Shown here: positions 12,147 to 26,941 of the stretch, piece after piece
How positions within the stretch are numbered: the stretch's first letter is position 1
Layout of the letters: every line of letters starts with the position of its first letter
DNA from: Deltaproteobacteria bacterium
GTDB lineage: Bacteria; Myxococcota_A; UBA9042; DTJE01
Length of the DNA: 64,000 bases
Direction of reading: 5' to 3'
NCBI GenBank assembly: GCA_029555025.1
Contig: JAKPTZ010000051.1
Span: 1-64,000, forward strand
Notes under the pieces: generated by a model
What the model was told of the DNA's origin: nothing
The model's database searches: none
Seen by the model: the letters and a program-made list of their open reading frames with translations, nothing else
Position numbers and translations under genes: made by a program

Positions 12147-12166
12147 GGGCGAATTTTCATTCGCCC
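12147..12166. repeat. GGGCGAAT intergenic hairpin repeat, copy 1
   Basis: Perfect 8-bp stem GGGCGAAT / ATTCGCCC around a TTTC loop, followed by GTACGG. It lies 3' of clpB. The same 20 bases plus flank recur at 26922-26941. Confidence 0.8.
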
Positions 12167-20935: not shown

Positions 20936-20963
20936 TTGTAATTGTGCCCAGAACACCTATAAT
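20936..20963 (+). promoter_or_regulatory. Promoter of the radical SAM operon
   Basis: TTGTAA (20936-20941), 16-base spacer, perfect -10 TATAAT (20958-20963). Transcription should begin near 20970. That rules out the in-frame start at 20944 and limits the first protein to starts at 20980 or later. Confidence 0.65.
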
Positions 20964-20979: not shown

Positions 20980-22074
20980 ATGAAGACGACTTCGATGGTA
21001 CGTGCCGACACACGCGGCGACATGCCGACACCCGGCGAATCAAGGGTGGGCAACCGCCTGCACATCTGCCTGGGATTTTCCTGCAACAACAACTGCCTTT
21101 TCTGCATGGAAGAAGACCGCGAGGCCCGCTTTCAGCGTCTGTCAAACCAGACGGCCGAAGATGTCCGCAGGATGATGACTGCCGACCCCGACGCGCGTGA
21201 AGTCATGTTCACCTCGGGCGAGCCGACCCTGCACCCGCAACTTCCCGAGTATCTGGAGATGGCGCGTGACCTTGGATTTCCGACGGTCGGGATGATCACG
21301 AACGGCCGACGGCTTTCCAACCGTGCGTACGCACGCAAGCTGCTTGAGTCCGGGCTGAACCACATCCTTATTTCGATTCACGGGCCGGACGCGCATGTCC
21401 ATGACGGACTGACACGTACAAAGGGTTCGTTCAATCAGGCCCTTGTCGGACTGGCCAACCTGCTCCTGCTGAAAAGGGAATATCCAGCCCTGAAGGTCCA
21501 CACGTCATACGTTGTAAACAAGCGCAACTACAGGCTTTTCCGCGAATTCTTCGACGTGATGCTTCCGTTTCGCGTCGATCAGCACGTGTTCAACGTGATG
21601 ATGCCGGAAGGTCGCGGCCGGGAATTCTTTGACAACCTGGTCATCCCGTACAGCATGGTTGCCGCAGAATTCAAGAAGTTCACGGATGCCCTGCCGCCAG
21701 AAGGCCTGAACAGGGTTTTCATACTGGACATACCTTACTGCACGACGGTCGGCATCAAGGATTCGGCCCGCGGATACGTGGAACGGTACTTCCACTACGA
21801 ACCGGACAGCACGGTTCTGTTCCAGGACGGGCGGACGCCGGACCAGCGTCGTCCGGAGGCCGATGCCGAGGTCTACAGCCGCAAGGTCATGTCCGGGGAC
21901 AAGCACGAGTATTCCAAAGTCACGAAGACCGTCCACGACCAGATGGTCCGCATCAAGCGCCCCGAATGCGAACAGTGCGGATACAACCACATCTGCCGGG
22001 GCGTCTTCACCAGTTACATCGATCGCTTCGGATGGGACGAATTCGTTCCGGTCCAGCGCAAGGGGGACAAATAG
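20980..22074 (+). CDS. Radical SAM protein 1 with C-terminal CxxCx5C cluster
   Basis: Radical SAM enzymes use a [4Fe-4S] cluster to cleave SAM and start radical chemistry. From the ATG at 20980, 364 residues. The catalytic CxxxCxxC is Cys35-Cys39-Cys42 (SCNNNCLFC). The SAM-binding strand reads TSGEPTLHP, one Ser replacing the usual first Gly. Later come an IPYC segment and a C-terminal triad Cys330-x2-Cys333-x5-Cys339 with RG after it, suggesting a second (auxiliary) cluster. The tail FGWDEFVPV is shared with the next gene. ATGs at 20995 and 21022 are possible alternatives. First of four consecutive radical SAM genes; its TAG is directly followed by the next ATG. Confidence 0.92.
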   Translation: MKTTSMVRADTRGDMPTPGESRVGNRLHICLGFSCNNNCLFCMEEDREARFQRLSNQTAEDVRRMMTADPDAREVMFTSGEPTLHPQLPEYLEMARDLGFPTVGMITNGRRLSNRAYARKLLESGLNHILISIHGPDAHVHDGLTRTKGSFNQALVGLANLLLLKREYPALKVHTSYVVNKRNYRLFREFFDVMLPFRVDQHVFNVMMPEGRGREFFDNLVIPYSMVAAEFKKFTDALPPEGLNRVFILDIPYCTTVGIKDSARGYVERYFHYEPDSTVLFQDGRTPDQRRPEADAEVYSRKVMSGDKHEYSKVTKTVHDQMVRIKRPECEQCGYNHICRGVFTSYIDRFGWDEFVPVQRKGDK

Positions 22075-23028
22075 ATGGCCGACACGCCGCAGACGGAACG
22101 CATCGACATCAAGACCGGCTGGAACTGCAACAACCGCTGCCTGTTCTGCGTCCAGGGAAACAAGCGTGCACAGTACCCCACCAAGGACACCGCCGAAGTC
22201 TTCAAGCTGCTCGAGGAAGGCCGGCGCGATGCCGACTCCATCGTCTTCACCGGTGGCGAGGTGACGATACGCCAGGATCTGATGGAGATTGTCGCGTACG
22301 CGAAGTCGCTTGGATACCGGTCGATCCAGATCCAGACCAACGGCAGGATGCTGGCATACAAGAAGATCTGCGAAGACCTGATAAACGCCGGGGCGACCGA
22401 GTTCTCACCGGCGCTTCACGGGCACACCGCCGCGCTGCACGATTACCTGGTGCACGCGCCGGGCGCCTTCAAACAAACCGTTCGCGCCATCGCCAACCTG
22501 AAGGAACTTGGTCAGTACGTCCTTACAAACAGCGTCATCTGCCGGGCCAACTACCGCCACCTTCCCGAGCTTGCGACCCTTCTGACGTCGCTGGGGGTCG
22601 ATCAGTACCAGTTCGCGTTCGTGCACCCGCTTGGAACGGCGGCCGAGCTTTTCACTTCGATCGTTCCGCGCATGTCCCTGATCGAGCCGTTCGTTCATCG
22701 CGGACTTGACGTCGGCATCAAGGCGGGGCGAAGCGTGATGACCGAGGCCATCCCTTACTGCTTCCTGAAGGGGTACGAAATTTTCGCGGGCGAACGGGTC
22801 GTTCCCAGAACCAAGATCCTGGAAGGCCACGTAACGATACAGGATTACACGGTGCACCGGCTTACGGAAGGAAAGGCCAAGGGCCCCCGCTGCGCCGAAT
22901 GCGCGTTTAATGACATGTGTGAAGGCCCGTGGCACGAGTATCCCGACAAGTACGGCTGGGACGAATTCGAACCCCGCAGGGACTTCTCGGGTTCCCACCC
23001 GGATCTCTTTCCCGGCGTGAAGCTTTGA
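22075..23028 (+). CDS. Radical SAM protein 2 with C-terminal CxxCx5C cluster
   Basis: 317 residues. Cys18-Cys22-Cys25 form CxxxCxxC (NCNNRCLFC); the SAM strand is FTGGEVTIRQDL. The IPYCFLKGYE segment supplies a probable fourth ligand for an auxiliary cluster with Cys273, Cys276 and Cys282. The tail YGWDEFEPR mirrors protein 1, so these two are each other's closest relatives here. No spacer separates it from protein 1. GGGGGA lies just upstream, within the end of gene 1. Substrate unknown. Confidence 0.92.
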   Translation: MADTPQTERIDIKTGWNCNNRCLFCVQGNKRAQYPTKDTAEVFKLLEEGRRDADSIVFTGGEVTIRQDLMEIVAYAKSLGYRSIQIQTNGRMLAYKKICEDLINAGATEFSPALHGHTAALHDYLVHAPGAFKQTVRAIANLKELGQYVLTNSVICRANYRHLPELATLLTSLGVDQYQFAFVHPLGTAAELFTSIVPRMSLIEPFVHRGLDVGIKAGRSVMTEAIPYCFLKGYEIFAGERVVPRTKILEGHVTIQDYTVHRLTEGKAKGPRCAECAFNDMCEGPWHEYPDKYGWDEFEPRRDFSGSHPDLFPGVKL

Positions 23029-23044
23029 AATCTGGTGACAGGCA

Positions 23045-24418
23045 GTGGGCGACTTCGACGCAAGACAGGCAGCAATCGACGAAAAGCGTCTCTGGGTAAG
23101 GATCACCCGATCCTGCAACAACCGGTGCGAGTTCTGTCTTGATTCCGGGGCGCTGGGCGGCGGGCCGATTCCCGAGGACGAAGTCCGCGCACGGCTTCGG
23201 CGGGGCCGCGACGAGGGATACACCCGCCTGATCCTTTCCGGCGGCGAGGCGACCACCCATCCGAAGTTCCTGGACTTCGTCAAGTACGGCACGGAGATCG
23301 GATATTCATGGATCCAGGTCATCAGCAACGGCCGGATGTTCGCTTACGAGAGCTTCGCGCGGCAGGCGGTTGAGAACGGGCTGCGCGAGGCAACCCTTTC
23401 GATGCACGCCCACAACCAGGAACTTTTTGAAAGGCTCACCGGGGCCGGCGGCGCTTTCAAGCAGGCTGTCCGGGGCCTTGTGAACCTGAAGAGGCTTGGA
23501 ACCGTCGTATCCGTCGATATCGTCCTGACGCGCCTTAACCTGCCATACCTTCGCGAAATCATGGAATTTTACATCAGCCTTGGCGTGATGGAATTCGATC
23601 TGCTGCACCTGATCCCGTTCGGGCGCGGGTTCGAGGAAAACCGCGAGGAACTTTACGCCGACGACGCGATGATCGGACGCGAACTGGCGCGCGCCCTGGA
23701 ACTGGATCGAATCCCGGGGATGTTCATCTGGACCAACAGGCTGCCGATTCGATACCTGGAAGGTTACGAGCATCTGTTCCAGGATCCGCACAAGCTTTAC
23801 GATGAAGTGCTTGGGGAACGTCAGTCCTTTCGAAGGCTTTTCGCCGACGGGACGCCGATCGAGTGCCGCCAGCCGGAACGATGCGCTGTCTGCTTCCTGC
23901 GCGATTTCTGCGACGCGGCAATCAGGTATGCTGCCGGACAGTGGGATTCGAAGCCCGTTCCCCCGGCGACCGAGCTGGACGGCGCGCTTGCCCGCCGAAT
24001 CATCGCTGACGGCAGCCGTGACGCGGCTGGTGACTTCCCGGACGGATTAAGGATTGCAGTAAGGGAACACTTCGGCGAGGCAAGGTCGGTGGCACCGACG
24101 GTTGAAGAAGTCCGGGAAGTTACGCGGATTACGGGGCTGCCGGTAATGGGCCTGCCGCCCTGCCTTGGGGGCGTGCCGTCCTGCCAGGATGCGCCCGACC
24201 CGGGGTGTGTACAGCGCTGGCCAGCGCCGCCCCCGGGCATACTTGACGCCCGCGGCGTTCCGGAAGTTGCCGGGTTCGTTGGCTTTTACATTCGGGAACT
24301 GTACAGGGTGAAAAGCCTGCGATGCGAATCGTGCTCGATGAACGCGCGGTGCGCCGGATTGCAGGTGAACCTGGCGCGCCAATGGGGCCTGAAGGTCCTG
24401 ACGCCCGTTACGGAGTGA
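23045..24418 (+). CDS. Radical SAM protein 3, enlarged, with two CxxCx5C modules
   Basis: 457 residues from a GTG start, 16 bases after protein 2; no strong ribosome site is visible. The catalytic triad is Cys24-Cys28-Cys31 (SCNNRCEFC), with LSGGEATTHP following. It differs from its neighbours in having two auxiliary modules. The first comprises Cys274, Cys280, Cys283 and Cys289. The second is at the C-terminus, Cys427, Cys430 and Cys436. The equivalent of the IPYC segment reads LPIRYLEGYE, with Arg in place of Cys. Between the modules lies a roughly 120-residue region with extra cysteines (LPPCLGGVPSC). It may bind a third cluster or hold a recognition domain. Confidence 0.92.
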   Translation: MGDFDARQAAIDEKRLWVRITRSCNNRCEFCLDSGALGGGPIPEDEVRARLRRGRDEGYTRLILSGGEATTHPKFLDFVKYGTEIGYSWIQVISNGRMFAYESFARQAVENGLREATLSMHAHNQELFERLTGAGGAFKQAVRGLVNLKRLGTVVSVDIVLTRLNLPYLREIMEFYISLGVMEFDLLHLIPFGRGFEENREELYADDAMIGRELARALELDRIPGMFIWTNRLPIRYLEGYEHLFQDPHKLYDEVLGERQSFRRLFADGTPIECRQPERCAVCFLRDFCDAAIRYAAGQWDSKPVPPATELDGALARRIIADGSRDAAGDFPDGLRIAVREHFGEARSVAPTVEEVREVTRITGLPVMGLPPCLGGVPSCQDAPDPGCVQRWPAPPPGILDARGVPEVAGFVGFYIRELYRVKSLRCESCSMNARCAGLQVNLARQWGLKVLTPVTE

Positions 24419-24425
24419 GTCGCGG

Positions 24426-24563
24426 GTGATCGCCATTCGCCCGAAGGCCGCGCCGGACGCGTCCGCGGTATTGTGCCGACCCATTTACCCGATCGGCGCG
24501 GGCATTCGCCCAACCGATCTTGAGGTGCCGATAACGTTATGGCCAACCTTGGATACATACAGG
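24426..24563 (+). CDS. Candidate 45-residue peptide in the gap of the radical SAM array
   Basis: The only sizeable gap between the four radical SAM genes (24419-24538) is spanned by an open frame beginning GTG, with GGAG ten bases upstream. It overlaps the first 25 bases of protein 4. The peptide contains RPIYPIGAGIRPTDLEVPI, with one Cys and two IRP motifs. It could be a precursor peptide for the neighbouring enzymes. Small ORFs of this size also arise by chance in GC-rich DNA, and I see no recognised leader motif, so this is speculative. Confidence 0.25.
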
Positions 24564-25471
24564 TAACACGACTCTGCAACCAGAAATGTCGCATGTGTTC
24601 GAACCCGGAGCGCGAGGCGACCCTGACGTTCGAGCAGGCCACCGCCCTTATCGATGACTTCGTCAGCCGTCACTATGACGGGATCATCCTTACGGGGGGC
24701 GAGCCGACAATGCATCCGCAGCTTGGCGAAATCATCGGTTACGCCAAGGCCCGCGGCATGGCGTCGCGCATAATCACGAACGGCCAGAAAACCTGCGACC
24801 TGGATTTCATTCGCGGTCTGGTCGAAAACGGCCTGACACACCTCCACGTCTCGATTCAATCTTACGACCCGAAGATTCAGGCATTCCTTTCCGGCAAGGA
24901 AGACAGTCTGGAAAACGCCTTCAAAACGCTTGAAAATGTTGAAAAATGCGGAATCACTGCCGACGTCAACACCACCATAAACCATTACAATGCGGCGCAC
25001 CTGGACAAGACCGTCGCATACCTGATCCGCAGGTTCCCCTTCCTGCACCACTTCGTCTGGAACAACCTTGATCCCTCGATGAACCGGGCCACGGAAAACC
25101 CGGATGTAATTCACGAACTGTGGGAAATGGAAGTGCCCCTGTACCGCGCGATGATGCTTCTGCACGCGACCGGTCGAACCTTCAGGGCCGAAAAGGTTCC
25201 ACTTTGCTACATGGCCGAGTTCGCCTGGGCCTCCACCGAATCGAGGAAGATCATCAAGGGTGAGGAACGGATCGTCAGGTTCCTTGACGAAAAGGGAATG
25301 GTTCGCGAAACGGCCTTCAGGCACGGCAAGGCGGAATGTTGCCAGCACTGCACCTTCGACGGCATCTGCGCGGGCCTGTTCGATATGGACGTGCATTACA
25401 AATCCTCGGAGTTGTACCCGGTTTTTCTTGATCCCGAACCGATTCGACAGAAGGTGCTGTCGGAACCATAA
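24539..25471 (+). CDS. Radical SAM protein 4 with C-terminal CxxCx5C cluster
   Basis: 310 residues. Catalytic Cys13-Cys17-Cys20 lie in LCNQKCRMC, the SAM strand is LTGGEPTMHPQLGE. VPLCYMAEF supplies a probable auxiliary-cluster ligand with Cys268, Cys271 and Cys277; Cys267 is extra. The tail ends DVHYKSSELYPV rather than GWDEF. It is more like generic radical SAM/SPASM proteins than the first three. The stop lies 23 bases before the membrane protease gene, so all five are likely one operon. Confidence 0.92.
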   Translation: MANLGYIQVTRLCNQKCRMCSNPEREATLTFEQATALIDDFVSRHYDGIILTGGEPTMHPQLGEIIGYAKARGMASRIITNGQKTCDLDFIRGLVENGLTHLHVSIQSYDPKIQAFLSGKEDSLENAFKTLENVEKCGITADVNTTINHYNAAHLDKTVAYLIRRFPFLHHFVWNNLDPSMNRATENPDVIHELWEMEVPLYRAMMLLHATGRTFRAEKVPLCYMAEFAWASTESRKIIKGEERIVRFLDEKGMVRETAFRHGKAECCQHCTFDGICAGLFDMDVHYKSSELYPVFLDPEPIRQKVLSEP

Positions 25472-25494
25472 AACTTCAGGATACGGGGCTGTCA

Positions 25495-26862
25495 ATGCCG
25501 GTCGAAATCATCCCAAAGATCGTTGCCGTCGTGCTGGCGGCGATCTGCGCCGGCACCGACTTCATCTGGGGCAAGGTCTTCAACAAGGTCGTTTCAAGGG
25601 CTTTGATCTTCGCGGCCGCATGGCTGGCATTCACGGGGGCATGGCATGCTTTCGGCGGTTCGACGTCAATGCAGGAATTCCCGGTTCTGGGGATGTGGAA
25701 GGCGCCGCAGAAGGTTGAAAAGCAGGCTTTCCAGGGCAATGACGGACCGGGGGCCTGGAACTCGGGCGCGCCGGTCAGCGTGAAGCCGGAAACCGAAGAG
25801 GAATGGGAGCGGGCTCGACAGGCTCAGGCGGCCGGGGGGCCTGACGGGGCGACTGCCGTCGCCGGAAAGCCCGGGACGCCAGCCGCTTCCGGCGGGGCTC
25901 CCGCGCCGGCACCTTCATTCTGGATATACGCGGCCAAGATGGCGATCAACGCATTGACGGCGCTTGTAATCGGAATGCTGATGTGGTGGTTCGGGATGTG
26001 GGCGGCCGGCGACGCCAAGCTGTTTGCAGCGCTGGTGGCGATACTGCCGCTTTCGTCCTATGCGAACTCGTACTGGCCGTGGTTTCCGGCGTACGTCCTG
26101 ATTTTCAACAGTTTCCTGGCGCTGCTCGGCATACTTGTCGGCGAGCTGCTGATCAGGTTCATCAAACTTCTGGTGAAACCGTCCCCGGAGGACGGCGACG
26201 TCTGGAAGAATGCCCTGACATGGGTGCGGGATCACAAACTGGACATCGTGCGCGGTTTCCTTGGAATCCTTTTCTTCATGATGCTGATCAAGACCTTGCG
26301 GATGGCGACCCAGGACTTCATCGGGCTGTTTGCCACAATCCAGGACAGCACGCTGATGTACGTGATCCTTTTCCTTATCTTCCAGCCGCTTCAGAAGCTG
26401 ATGATGAAGAAGTGGGTCCTTATCCCGGCGGTGCTCTTCACGGCCGGGTTCGTTGCACACGCGGCCATCTGGCCAAGCGGGAACCACAACGTCGTGACAA
26501 TCGTTAAGATGTCGGGGCTGATGGTCGGCGTCGTCGGGTTCCTGATCACATACCAGCTTTACCTGAACGTGTTCGATTACCGGCCGATCCGGATCTGGGA
26601 GCTTCGACCTCAGATGCTTCTGTCCAGGAAGACCACCGACACGCTGAAGGAAGACCGCGACATGCTGGATCACAAGATGGGCCCTATCGGGCCGGACGGG
26701 CTCAGCAGGCAGCAGGTCGAAACGCTTAGACGGTGGTGGATTGATCGCGGCAAGGGCGGAAAAATCTGGATTTCAAGGACGATCCCGTTCGCGCCGGCCC
26801 TTTTCATCGGAACCATTCTTACCGTGATTCTGTCCGGTTACATCTTCCGGGTCACATACTGA
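25495..26862 (+). CDS. A24-family (prepilin-peptidase-like) membrane aspartic protease with extra domains
   Basis: 455 residues, many membrane helices. Both aspartates of the A24 family are present. Asp22 in AGTDFIWGKVFNK keeps the D-x7-N spacing of CpaA/TadV. Asp173 in MWAAGDAKLFAAL corresponds to GxGD, with Ala for the first Gly. Such enzymes cut the leader of prepilins (or preflagellins) on the cytoplasmic side. Unlike normal CpaA (about 170 residues), this one has a long Ala/Pro/Gly linker at about 85-140 between the catalytic halves. It also has an additional C-terminal block of about five helices with a cytoplasmic loop. It directly follows the four radical SAM genes. Confidence 0.75.
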   Translation: MPVEIIPKIVAVVLAAICAGTDFIWGKVFNKVVSRALIFAAAWLAFTGAWHAFGGSTSMQEFPVLGMWKAPQKVEKQAFQGNDGPGAWNSGAPVSVKPETEEEWERARQAQAAGGPDGATAVAGKPGTPAASGGAPAPAPSFWIYAAKMAINALTALVIGMLMWWFGMWAAGDAKLFAALVAILPLSSYANSYWPWFPAYVLIFNSFLALLGILVGELLIRFIKLLVKPSPEDGDVWKNALTWVRDHKLDIVRGFLGILFFMMLIKTLRMATQDFIGLFATIQDSTLMYVILFLIFQPLQKLMMKKWVLIPAVLFTAGFVAHAAIWPSGNHNVVTIVKMSGLMVGVVGFLITYQLYLNVFDYRPIRIWELRPQMLLSRKTTDTLKEDRDMLDHKMGPIGPDGLSRQQVETLRRWWIDRGKGGKIWISRTIPFAPALFIGTILTVILSGYIFRVTY

Positions 26863-26921: not shown

Positions 26922-26941
26922 GGGCGAATTTTCATTCGCCC
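26922..26941. repeat. GGGCGAAT intergenic hairpin repeat, copy 3
   Basis: Identical 20-base hairpin to 12147-12166, again preceded by GC and followed by GTACGG. It lies between the convergent ends of the membrane protease and rph, consistent with a role in 3'-end formation or protection of both transcripts. Confidence 0.8.

Follow-up and report, generated by a model that had tools for sequence, protein, structure and literature searches.

What would four radical S-adenosylmethionine (SAM) enzymes, encoded one behind another and followed at once by a membrane protease, act upon? The question is raised by five open reading frames (ORFs), RS1-RS2-RS3-RS4-P5, which form one block on the plus strand at positions 20980-26862 of the window, that is, of the whole 64,000-nucleotide stretch analysed here (contig JAKPTZ010000051.1 of a Deltaproteobacteria bacterium, GTDB Myxococcota_A). 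An earlier note on this DNA had recognised no described pathway with this make-up and had seen no substrate, and it supposed a system that modifies an exported or pilin-like polypeptide and then releases its leader. Our analysis suggests that the cassette is probably the HxsC-type arm, together with the protease, of a dispersed HxsA4-type His-Xaa-Ser (Hxs) system, and that it acts on the exported repeat protein HxsA4. The Hxs system was reportedly described by Haft and Basu in 2011, with the NCBIfam families HxsA, HxsB, HxsC and HxsD (TIGR03976-TIGR03979). It is a class predicted in silico.

All four RS proteins match the Radical_SAM family of Pfam (PF04055, E values from 1e-15 to 7e-22), and the two cysteine motifs that had been pointed out in these consecutive genes are retained in their orthologues. 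CxxxCxxC is present in 12/12 orthologues of RS1, 25/27 of RS2, 42/42 of RS3 and 83/85 of RS4, with at least two of the four misses being ORFs truncated by contig ends, and CxxCx5C is present in 12/12, 27/27, 42/42 and 85/85, respectively. The nearest NCBIfam family is HxsC4 for RS1, HxsC4 and then HxsC for RS2 and RS3, and HxsC for RS4. None of the proteins reaches the curated cut-off for HxsC or HxsC4 proper, the best scores being 328 of a required 500 bits (RS1, HxsC4) and 94 of 268 bits (RS2, HxsC), and they are therefore named HxsC-type here, not HxsC. Orthologues share 39-85% identity, versus about 25-30% for the paralogues RS1-RS4 among themselves, and so the four enzymes are old and have each been kept separately.

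A substrate becomes visible on another contig of the same genome. HxsA4 (contig C137, L196:8332-8673) scores 97.1 bits with NF038313, for which the cut-off is 55. The protein of 113 amino acids, MASKRVPTFKKRIQDFLSSEEGKITRGQAAAIGSFMLMAGTSGQALAAG...HCSHASHGSHGS...HGSW, combines a charged leader and the hydrophobic stretch SSEEGKITRGQAAAIGSFMLMAGTSGQALA with a C-terminal part of 16 His-Xaa-Ser repeats, mostly His-Gly-Ser, that ends in W. Searching with a degenerate DNA pattern for three HxS units showed that no other such repeat is present in the genome (one C137 site gave 14 overlapping hits, and there was one stray hit, against one in the backward control), and neither the window nor the HxsB locus contains an HxS stretch with three or more repeats. 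The HxsB locus, on contig C37, encodes HxsB (L135:2458-3957; TIGR03978, 519 bits, cut-off 370), HxsD (TIGR03976, 61-63 bits, cut-off 50), an HxsD-like protein (68 bits, cut-off 41), and one further HxsC-type radical SAM enzyme. The same three loci recur in the family, namely the cassette, the HxsD-HxsD-like-HxsB-fifth enzyme cluster, and HxsA4 behind genes for a 188-amino-acid protein and a CobW-related protein. Since HxsA4, HxsB, HxsD and the HxsD-like protein are encoded in the same genome, the array is, on this sequence evidence, most likely the HxsC-type arm of a dispersed Hxs system. The pathway is thus of a described kind, its HxsA4, HxsB and HxsD being above their cut-offs, and in that respect the earlier impression of an undescribed pathway has to be revised.

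The five genes travel together. P5-bearing neighbourhoods from related genomes were compared by tblastn, and the order RS1-RS2-RS3-RS4-P5 was kept in 12/12 family or order relatives (10 complete loci and 2 cut by contig ends), while the genes flanking the cassette differ between genera. What is conserved as a unit is thus the block of five genes, not each gene separately, and the conservation of its order goes far beyond what chance would give. A conserved small gene, which the earlier note had named as something that would support a system, was not seen inside the cassette in the relatives examined. The large genes upstream were considered as partners and rejected, as they differ between genera (ClpB/ClpC-like, a resistance-nodulation-division pump, helicase, amidohydrolase, RelA). 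The low mutual identity of the four paralogues could be taken to mean that the five genes encode enzymes that work apart from each other and have only their operon in common. That reading is largely refuted by the conserved order amid changing flanks, and by adjacencies that reach across phyla, and we consider it very improbable.

Those adjacencies emerged from an RS4 alignment scan of public genomes, one genome per species, which returned 312 relatives. The best 80 of the 312 include Myxococcota, Bdellovibrionota, Elusimicrobiota, Omnitrophota, Spirochaetota and Patescibacteria, and in many of these 80 further radical SAM genes are arrayed with RS4. Adjacency of RS4 and P5 extends to Patescibacteria, Spirochaetota and Elusimicrobiota, and RS3-RS4 adjacency is likewise found across phyla. 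In about 30 RS4 loci, HxsD, HxsD-like and HxsB form a recurring gene set (profile-checked on examples), and 15 of the 80 have, close to the array, an ORF with His-Gly-Ser (HGS) repeats whose last residues are typically HGQW, HGSW or HGAW. The Hxs genes, spread over three loci in the window genome, are encoded together in L099 and about 15 other loci. In L099, a Bradymonadales contig from a metagenome-assembled genome (MAG), HxsB, HxsD-like and HxsD on the minus strand are divergent from RS1 to RS4 on the plus strand, with the RS order as in the window. Another locus, L056 (CAMAWH010000012.1), is titled a Klebsiella pneumoniae MAG; its RS4 groups with those of Deltaproteobacteria/Myxococcota MAGs, and the entry is probably mislabelled.

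Presence and absence were compared over 138 related genomes, HxsA4 being counted when above its cut-off. RS4 and HxsA4 are both present in 55 genomes and both absent from 74, leaving 9 discordant (6 + 3), some of which are fragmentary assemblies (e.g., G004, G030, G054). P5 was found in 20 of the 138; RS4 is present in 19 of these 20 genomes, and HxsA4 also in 19. Relatedness among the genomes inflates nominal Fisher values, and we therefore put weight on the near-absence of exceptions. This near one-to-one pattern bears on the proposal that the product of the array is a small-molecule cofactor, or that its target is some protein different from HxsA4, with the Hxs co-occurrence being an inherited lineage signal. 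Indeed, RS1-RS4 also score against MoaA and against heme and tungsten-cofactor maturases, a similarity at the level of the superfamily, and some RS4 loci lie near nitrogenase-component-1-like genes. Against this, the nearest families of the array are HxsC4 and HxsC, and in distant genomes RS3/RS4 have HGS-repeat genes and HxsB/HxsD as physical neighbours; a cofactor or an unrelated target is improbable in our judgement. The nitrogenase-component-1-like genes (PF00148) near RS2/RS4 relatives are found in L050 (2098-3513 and 4026-6752), and clusters also occur in L060, L061, L062, L081, L103 and L119.

P5 begins 23 bases 3' of RS4, and it does carry the two aspartates that had been attributed to it. 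It is a multi-pass membrane protein in which D22 (TDxxxGKVxN) and D173 (AAGDAK) show almost no variation across the family alignment; alignment A5 likewise has D30 and D97. The window P5 falls below the cut-off of the A24 peptidase family PF01478 (16.4 versus 26.5 bits), and 5 of 21 P5 relatives match that family independently, the best with an E value of 2.7e-7. An AlphaFold model of P5 (predicted local distance difference test score, pLDDT, 80.8) has archaeal FlaK (3s0x_B) as its sole sensible fold match in the PDB, with a template-modelling score of 0.55 by FlaK length and 0.25 by query length and an E value of 8, which is not significant. A profile search of solved structures with P5 gave nothing relevant. 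The canonical A24 peptidase of the window genome is a separate gene (C81).

A role for P5 in leader cutting is suggested by its co-distribution with the leader of HxsA4, which occurs in three types: (1) a hydrophobic stretch preceded by SEEGK-[IV]-x; (2) a leader like those of twin-arginine translocation (Tat) substrates, with RR and a hydrophobic stretch; and (3) a leader with no signal-like stretch. Type 1, or a near variant of it (one SEEAK, one SEEGR, one DEEGK), is found in all 29 HxsA4 entries tested from P5-containing genomes, and the 25 entries without P5 are of types 2 or 3, with L104 from genome G178 as the sole exception. A search of G178 for a divergent P5, with a more sensitive model built from the proteins of sister genomes, found none. 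Tat-like leaders were also noted in the genomes of L050, L062 and L081, which have nitrogenase-like genes near the array. The L060 genome (G145) contains several HxsA4-like repeat genes, and both leaders that were read (L236, L256) are Tat-like.

Several points weigh against the proposed Hxs system. Every part is known from genes and sequence alone, RS1-RS4 score under every curated HxsC/HxsC4 cut-off, and in the window genome the Hxs genes are spread over at least three separate loci, so that their linkage there is indirect. G178 has a hydrophobic non-Tat leader and no detectable P5. Hydropathy alone passes three more entries without P5 (L054, L088, L105); their hydrophobic stretches are short and lack the SEEGK motif, and these three were set to negative, and a few Tat-like entries coded, by choice after the sequences had been seen. 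The RS4 tree gives P5 four changes and two supported independent pairs, one of which differs in leader and agrees with the match between P5 and leader type. With four changes and one informative pair, the correlation is therefore suggestive and not proven. Cleavage by P5 as a class III cutter, with Gly at -1, was considered at ITRG/Q and rejected: leaders from P5-containing genomes have G, S, R, K or N at this site, and hence no invariant Gly. Several leaders end in AxA and could be cut by ordinary signal peptidase (e.g., GQALA, HADA).

These observations could be explained if the radical SAM enzymes mature HxsA4 while P5 has some other substrate, for instance a pseudopilin or another partner protein, and the leader is taken off by ordinary signal peptidase I. 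The AxA-like ends of many leaders, the lack of a conserved Gly, the few independent events and the exception in G178 all fit such a division of labour. It does not account so readily for the fixed position of P5 directly downstream of RS4 across phyla, for HxsA4 in all but one of the P5 genomes, or for the absence of P5 where the leader is Tat-like or not hydrophobic, and the canonical A24 gene of the genome is a separate one. We regard a different target for P5 as unlikely, though less so than the alternatives above.

Under the proposed Hxs system acting on HxsA4, HxsB and the HxsC-type enzymes would each install a radical-dependent modification on the HxsA4 repeats in the cytoplasm, with HxsD and the HxsD-like protein assisting as peptide-binding or docking (adaptor) subunits. 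By means of its hydrophobic segment, the modified precursor would then enter or cross the inner membrane. P5, with two aspartates at the membrane face, would cut at or near that segment and free the repeat polymer from its leader. In lineages without P5, a Tat-like leader would be used, or a leader lacking a signal-like segment would be retained. From the histidine content, one might guess that the His-Gly-Ser polymer binds metal. The original supposition of modification followed by leader release is thus supported in part, since the block is conserved and goes with a single repeat substrate, and since the occurrence of the protease follows that of a hydrophobic leader on this substrate; the pilin-like substrate is replaced by a His-Xaa-Ser repeat protein.

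The view of HxsD as an adaptor was compared with a structural model (pLDDT 85), which resembles RNA polymerase Rpb11/L-type dimerisation domains (probability 1.0, E value 5.6e-3). A winged-helix RiPP recognition element of the PqqD type, where RiPP denotes a ribosomally synthesized and post-translationally modified peptide, was considered for HxsD and is unsupported. HxsD genes (L116 11310-11786 and others, alignment A4) encode a conserved C-terminal tail, DDPLGIAVPWEEK, after the domain, which is likely a docking motif. A fourth locus, on contig C58 (L136 1009-5286), encodes a two-domain radical SAM fusion, a second radical SAM protein and a SAM methyltransferase. Its counterparts lie directly beside the cassette in G007 (L025 191-4392) and likewise in G010, where the locus is cut by a contig end (L024 1-1411), and the cluster may be a further arm of the Hxs system.

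The layout of the cassette is given in Table 1. The intergenic distances are 0 (RS1-RS2), 16 (RS2-RS3), 120 (RS3-RS4) and 23 bases (RS4-P5), and the description of almost no spacing is borne out by three of these gaps and not by the 120-base one. The promoter-like site matches 10 of 12 consensus bases, yet shuffled sequence yields 2.0 such sites per region, and the match is thus not above the shuffled level. A TA[CGT]AAT box a short distance 5' of RS1 recurs in several relatives, which makes ATG 20980 a plausible start for RS1; 20998 or 21022 are possible.

Table 1. Features of the five-gene cassette, in window coordinates
Feature	Position	Strand	Basis
Promoter-like site TTGTAA-16-TATAAT before RS1	20936..20963	+	Consensus scan, 10/12 bases
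RS1, radical SAM protein related to HxsC4	20980..22074	+	PF04055 1.2e-19; NF038332 HxsC4 328 bits, full model, cut-off 500
RS2, HxsC-type radical SAM	22075..23028	+	PF04055 6e-20; NF038332 178 bits, TIGR03977 94 bits, both below cut-off
RS3, HxsC-type radical SAM, two CxxCx5C motifs	23045..24418	+	PF04055 1.1e-15; NF038332 102 bits
RS4, most conserved member of array	24539..25471	+	PF04055 6.5e-22; alignment A1, about 80 invariant columns
P5, A24-like GxGD multi-pass membrane protease (D22, D173), RS4 partner	25495..26862	+	Motifs, model

Several neighbouring elements were also noted. A CobW-related gene and a 188-amino-acid gene of no assigned family (L196 6280-8190) precede HxsA4 in nearly all family genomes fetched, and genes for a TSP3-repeat protein and a FadL-like outer membrane protein (L135 4935-8398) adjoin the HxsB cluster in most family members. 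A perfect intergenic palindrome, GGGCGAATTTTCATTCGCCC, occurs in the window at 12147-12166 and 26922-26941 (0.00 expected by chance), and its variants recur upstream of HxsD on contig C37 (L135 ~1180-1510); it looks like a genome-wide repeat element.

Our literature searches on HxsA-D, HxsC4 and SHGSHGS, within one library of papers, found nothing on function, chemistry or product, and no paper that combined radical SAM, prepilin peptidase and RiPP; the paper of Haft and Basu is cited in PMC9062424. Like other Hxs systems, the window genome encodes an HxS-repeat peptide, HxsB and HxsD above curated cut-offs. It differs in having five or more HxsC-type enzymes in place of a single one (four in the cassette and one beside HxsB, with further related enzymes on C58), an added HxsD-like protein and membrane A24-like protease, and genes spread over at least three loci. 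Among the closest known systems is also the HxsA4/HxsC4 subtype (NF038313, NF038332, NF038315), with a likeness seen in the HxsA4 and HxsD-like scores (97 versus 55 and 68 versus 41 bits) and in the alignment of RS1 over the full HxsC4 model. However, RS1 remains under the 500-bit cut-off with RS2-RS4 more distant, and no protease is among the NCBIfam names met in these searches, whereas the window cassette has P5. P5 itself shares both aspartate motifs and the multi-pass architecture with A24 prepilin and preflagellin peptidases (PilD, TadV/CpaA, archaeal FlaK 3S0X), but it scores below the Pfam cut-off, has a large insert after the second transmembrane segment and a long C-terminal half, and has a radical SAM array, not pilus genes, as its genetic partner. 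Its predicted role, leader removal after modification, is that of the RiPP leader proteases reviewed in PMC10885120, a review in which a text search gave no match for prepilin, aspartic or aspartyl proteases. We give an even chance to a broader proposal, in which P5 would be the first membrane protease of the A24/GxGD aspartyl class to be devoted to a RiPP-like pathway, releasing from its hydrophobic leader a His-Gly-Ser polymer that is exported and carries multiple radical-dependent modifications. On this view, Hxs systems would have changed outlet again and again, using an A24-type leader, a Tat-like leader or no leader of either sort. A single genome here connects the substrate and the radical enzymes with a candidate protease for processing. 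The radical SAM-array/protease combination spans Myxococcota to Spirochaetota and Patescibacteria, and a concrete leader and a concrete protease are now available for testing. If the proposal is correct, an unusually large number of radical SAM enzymes would act on a very simple repeat peptide, whose release would fall to a type of protease not listed among those of RiPPs.

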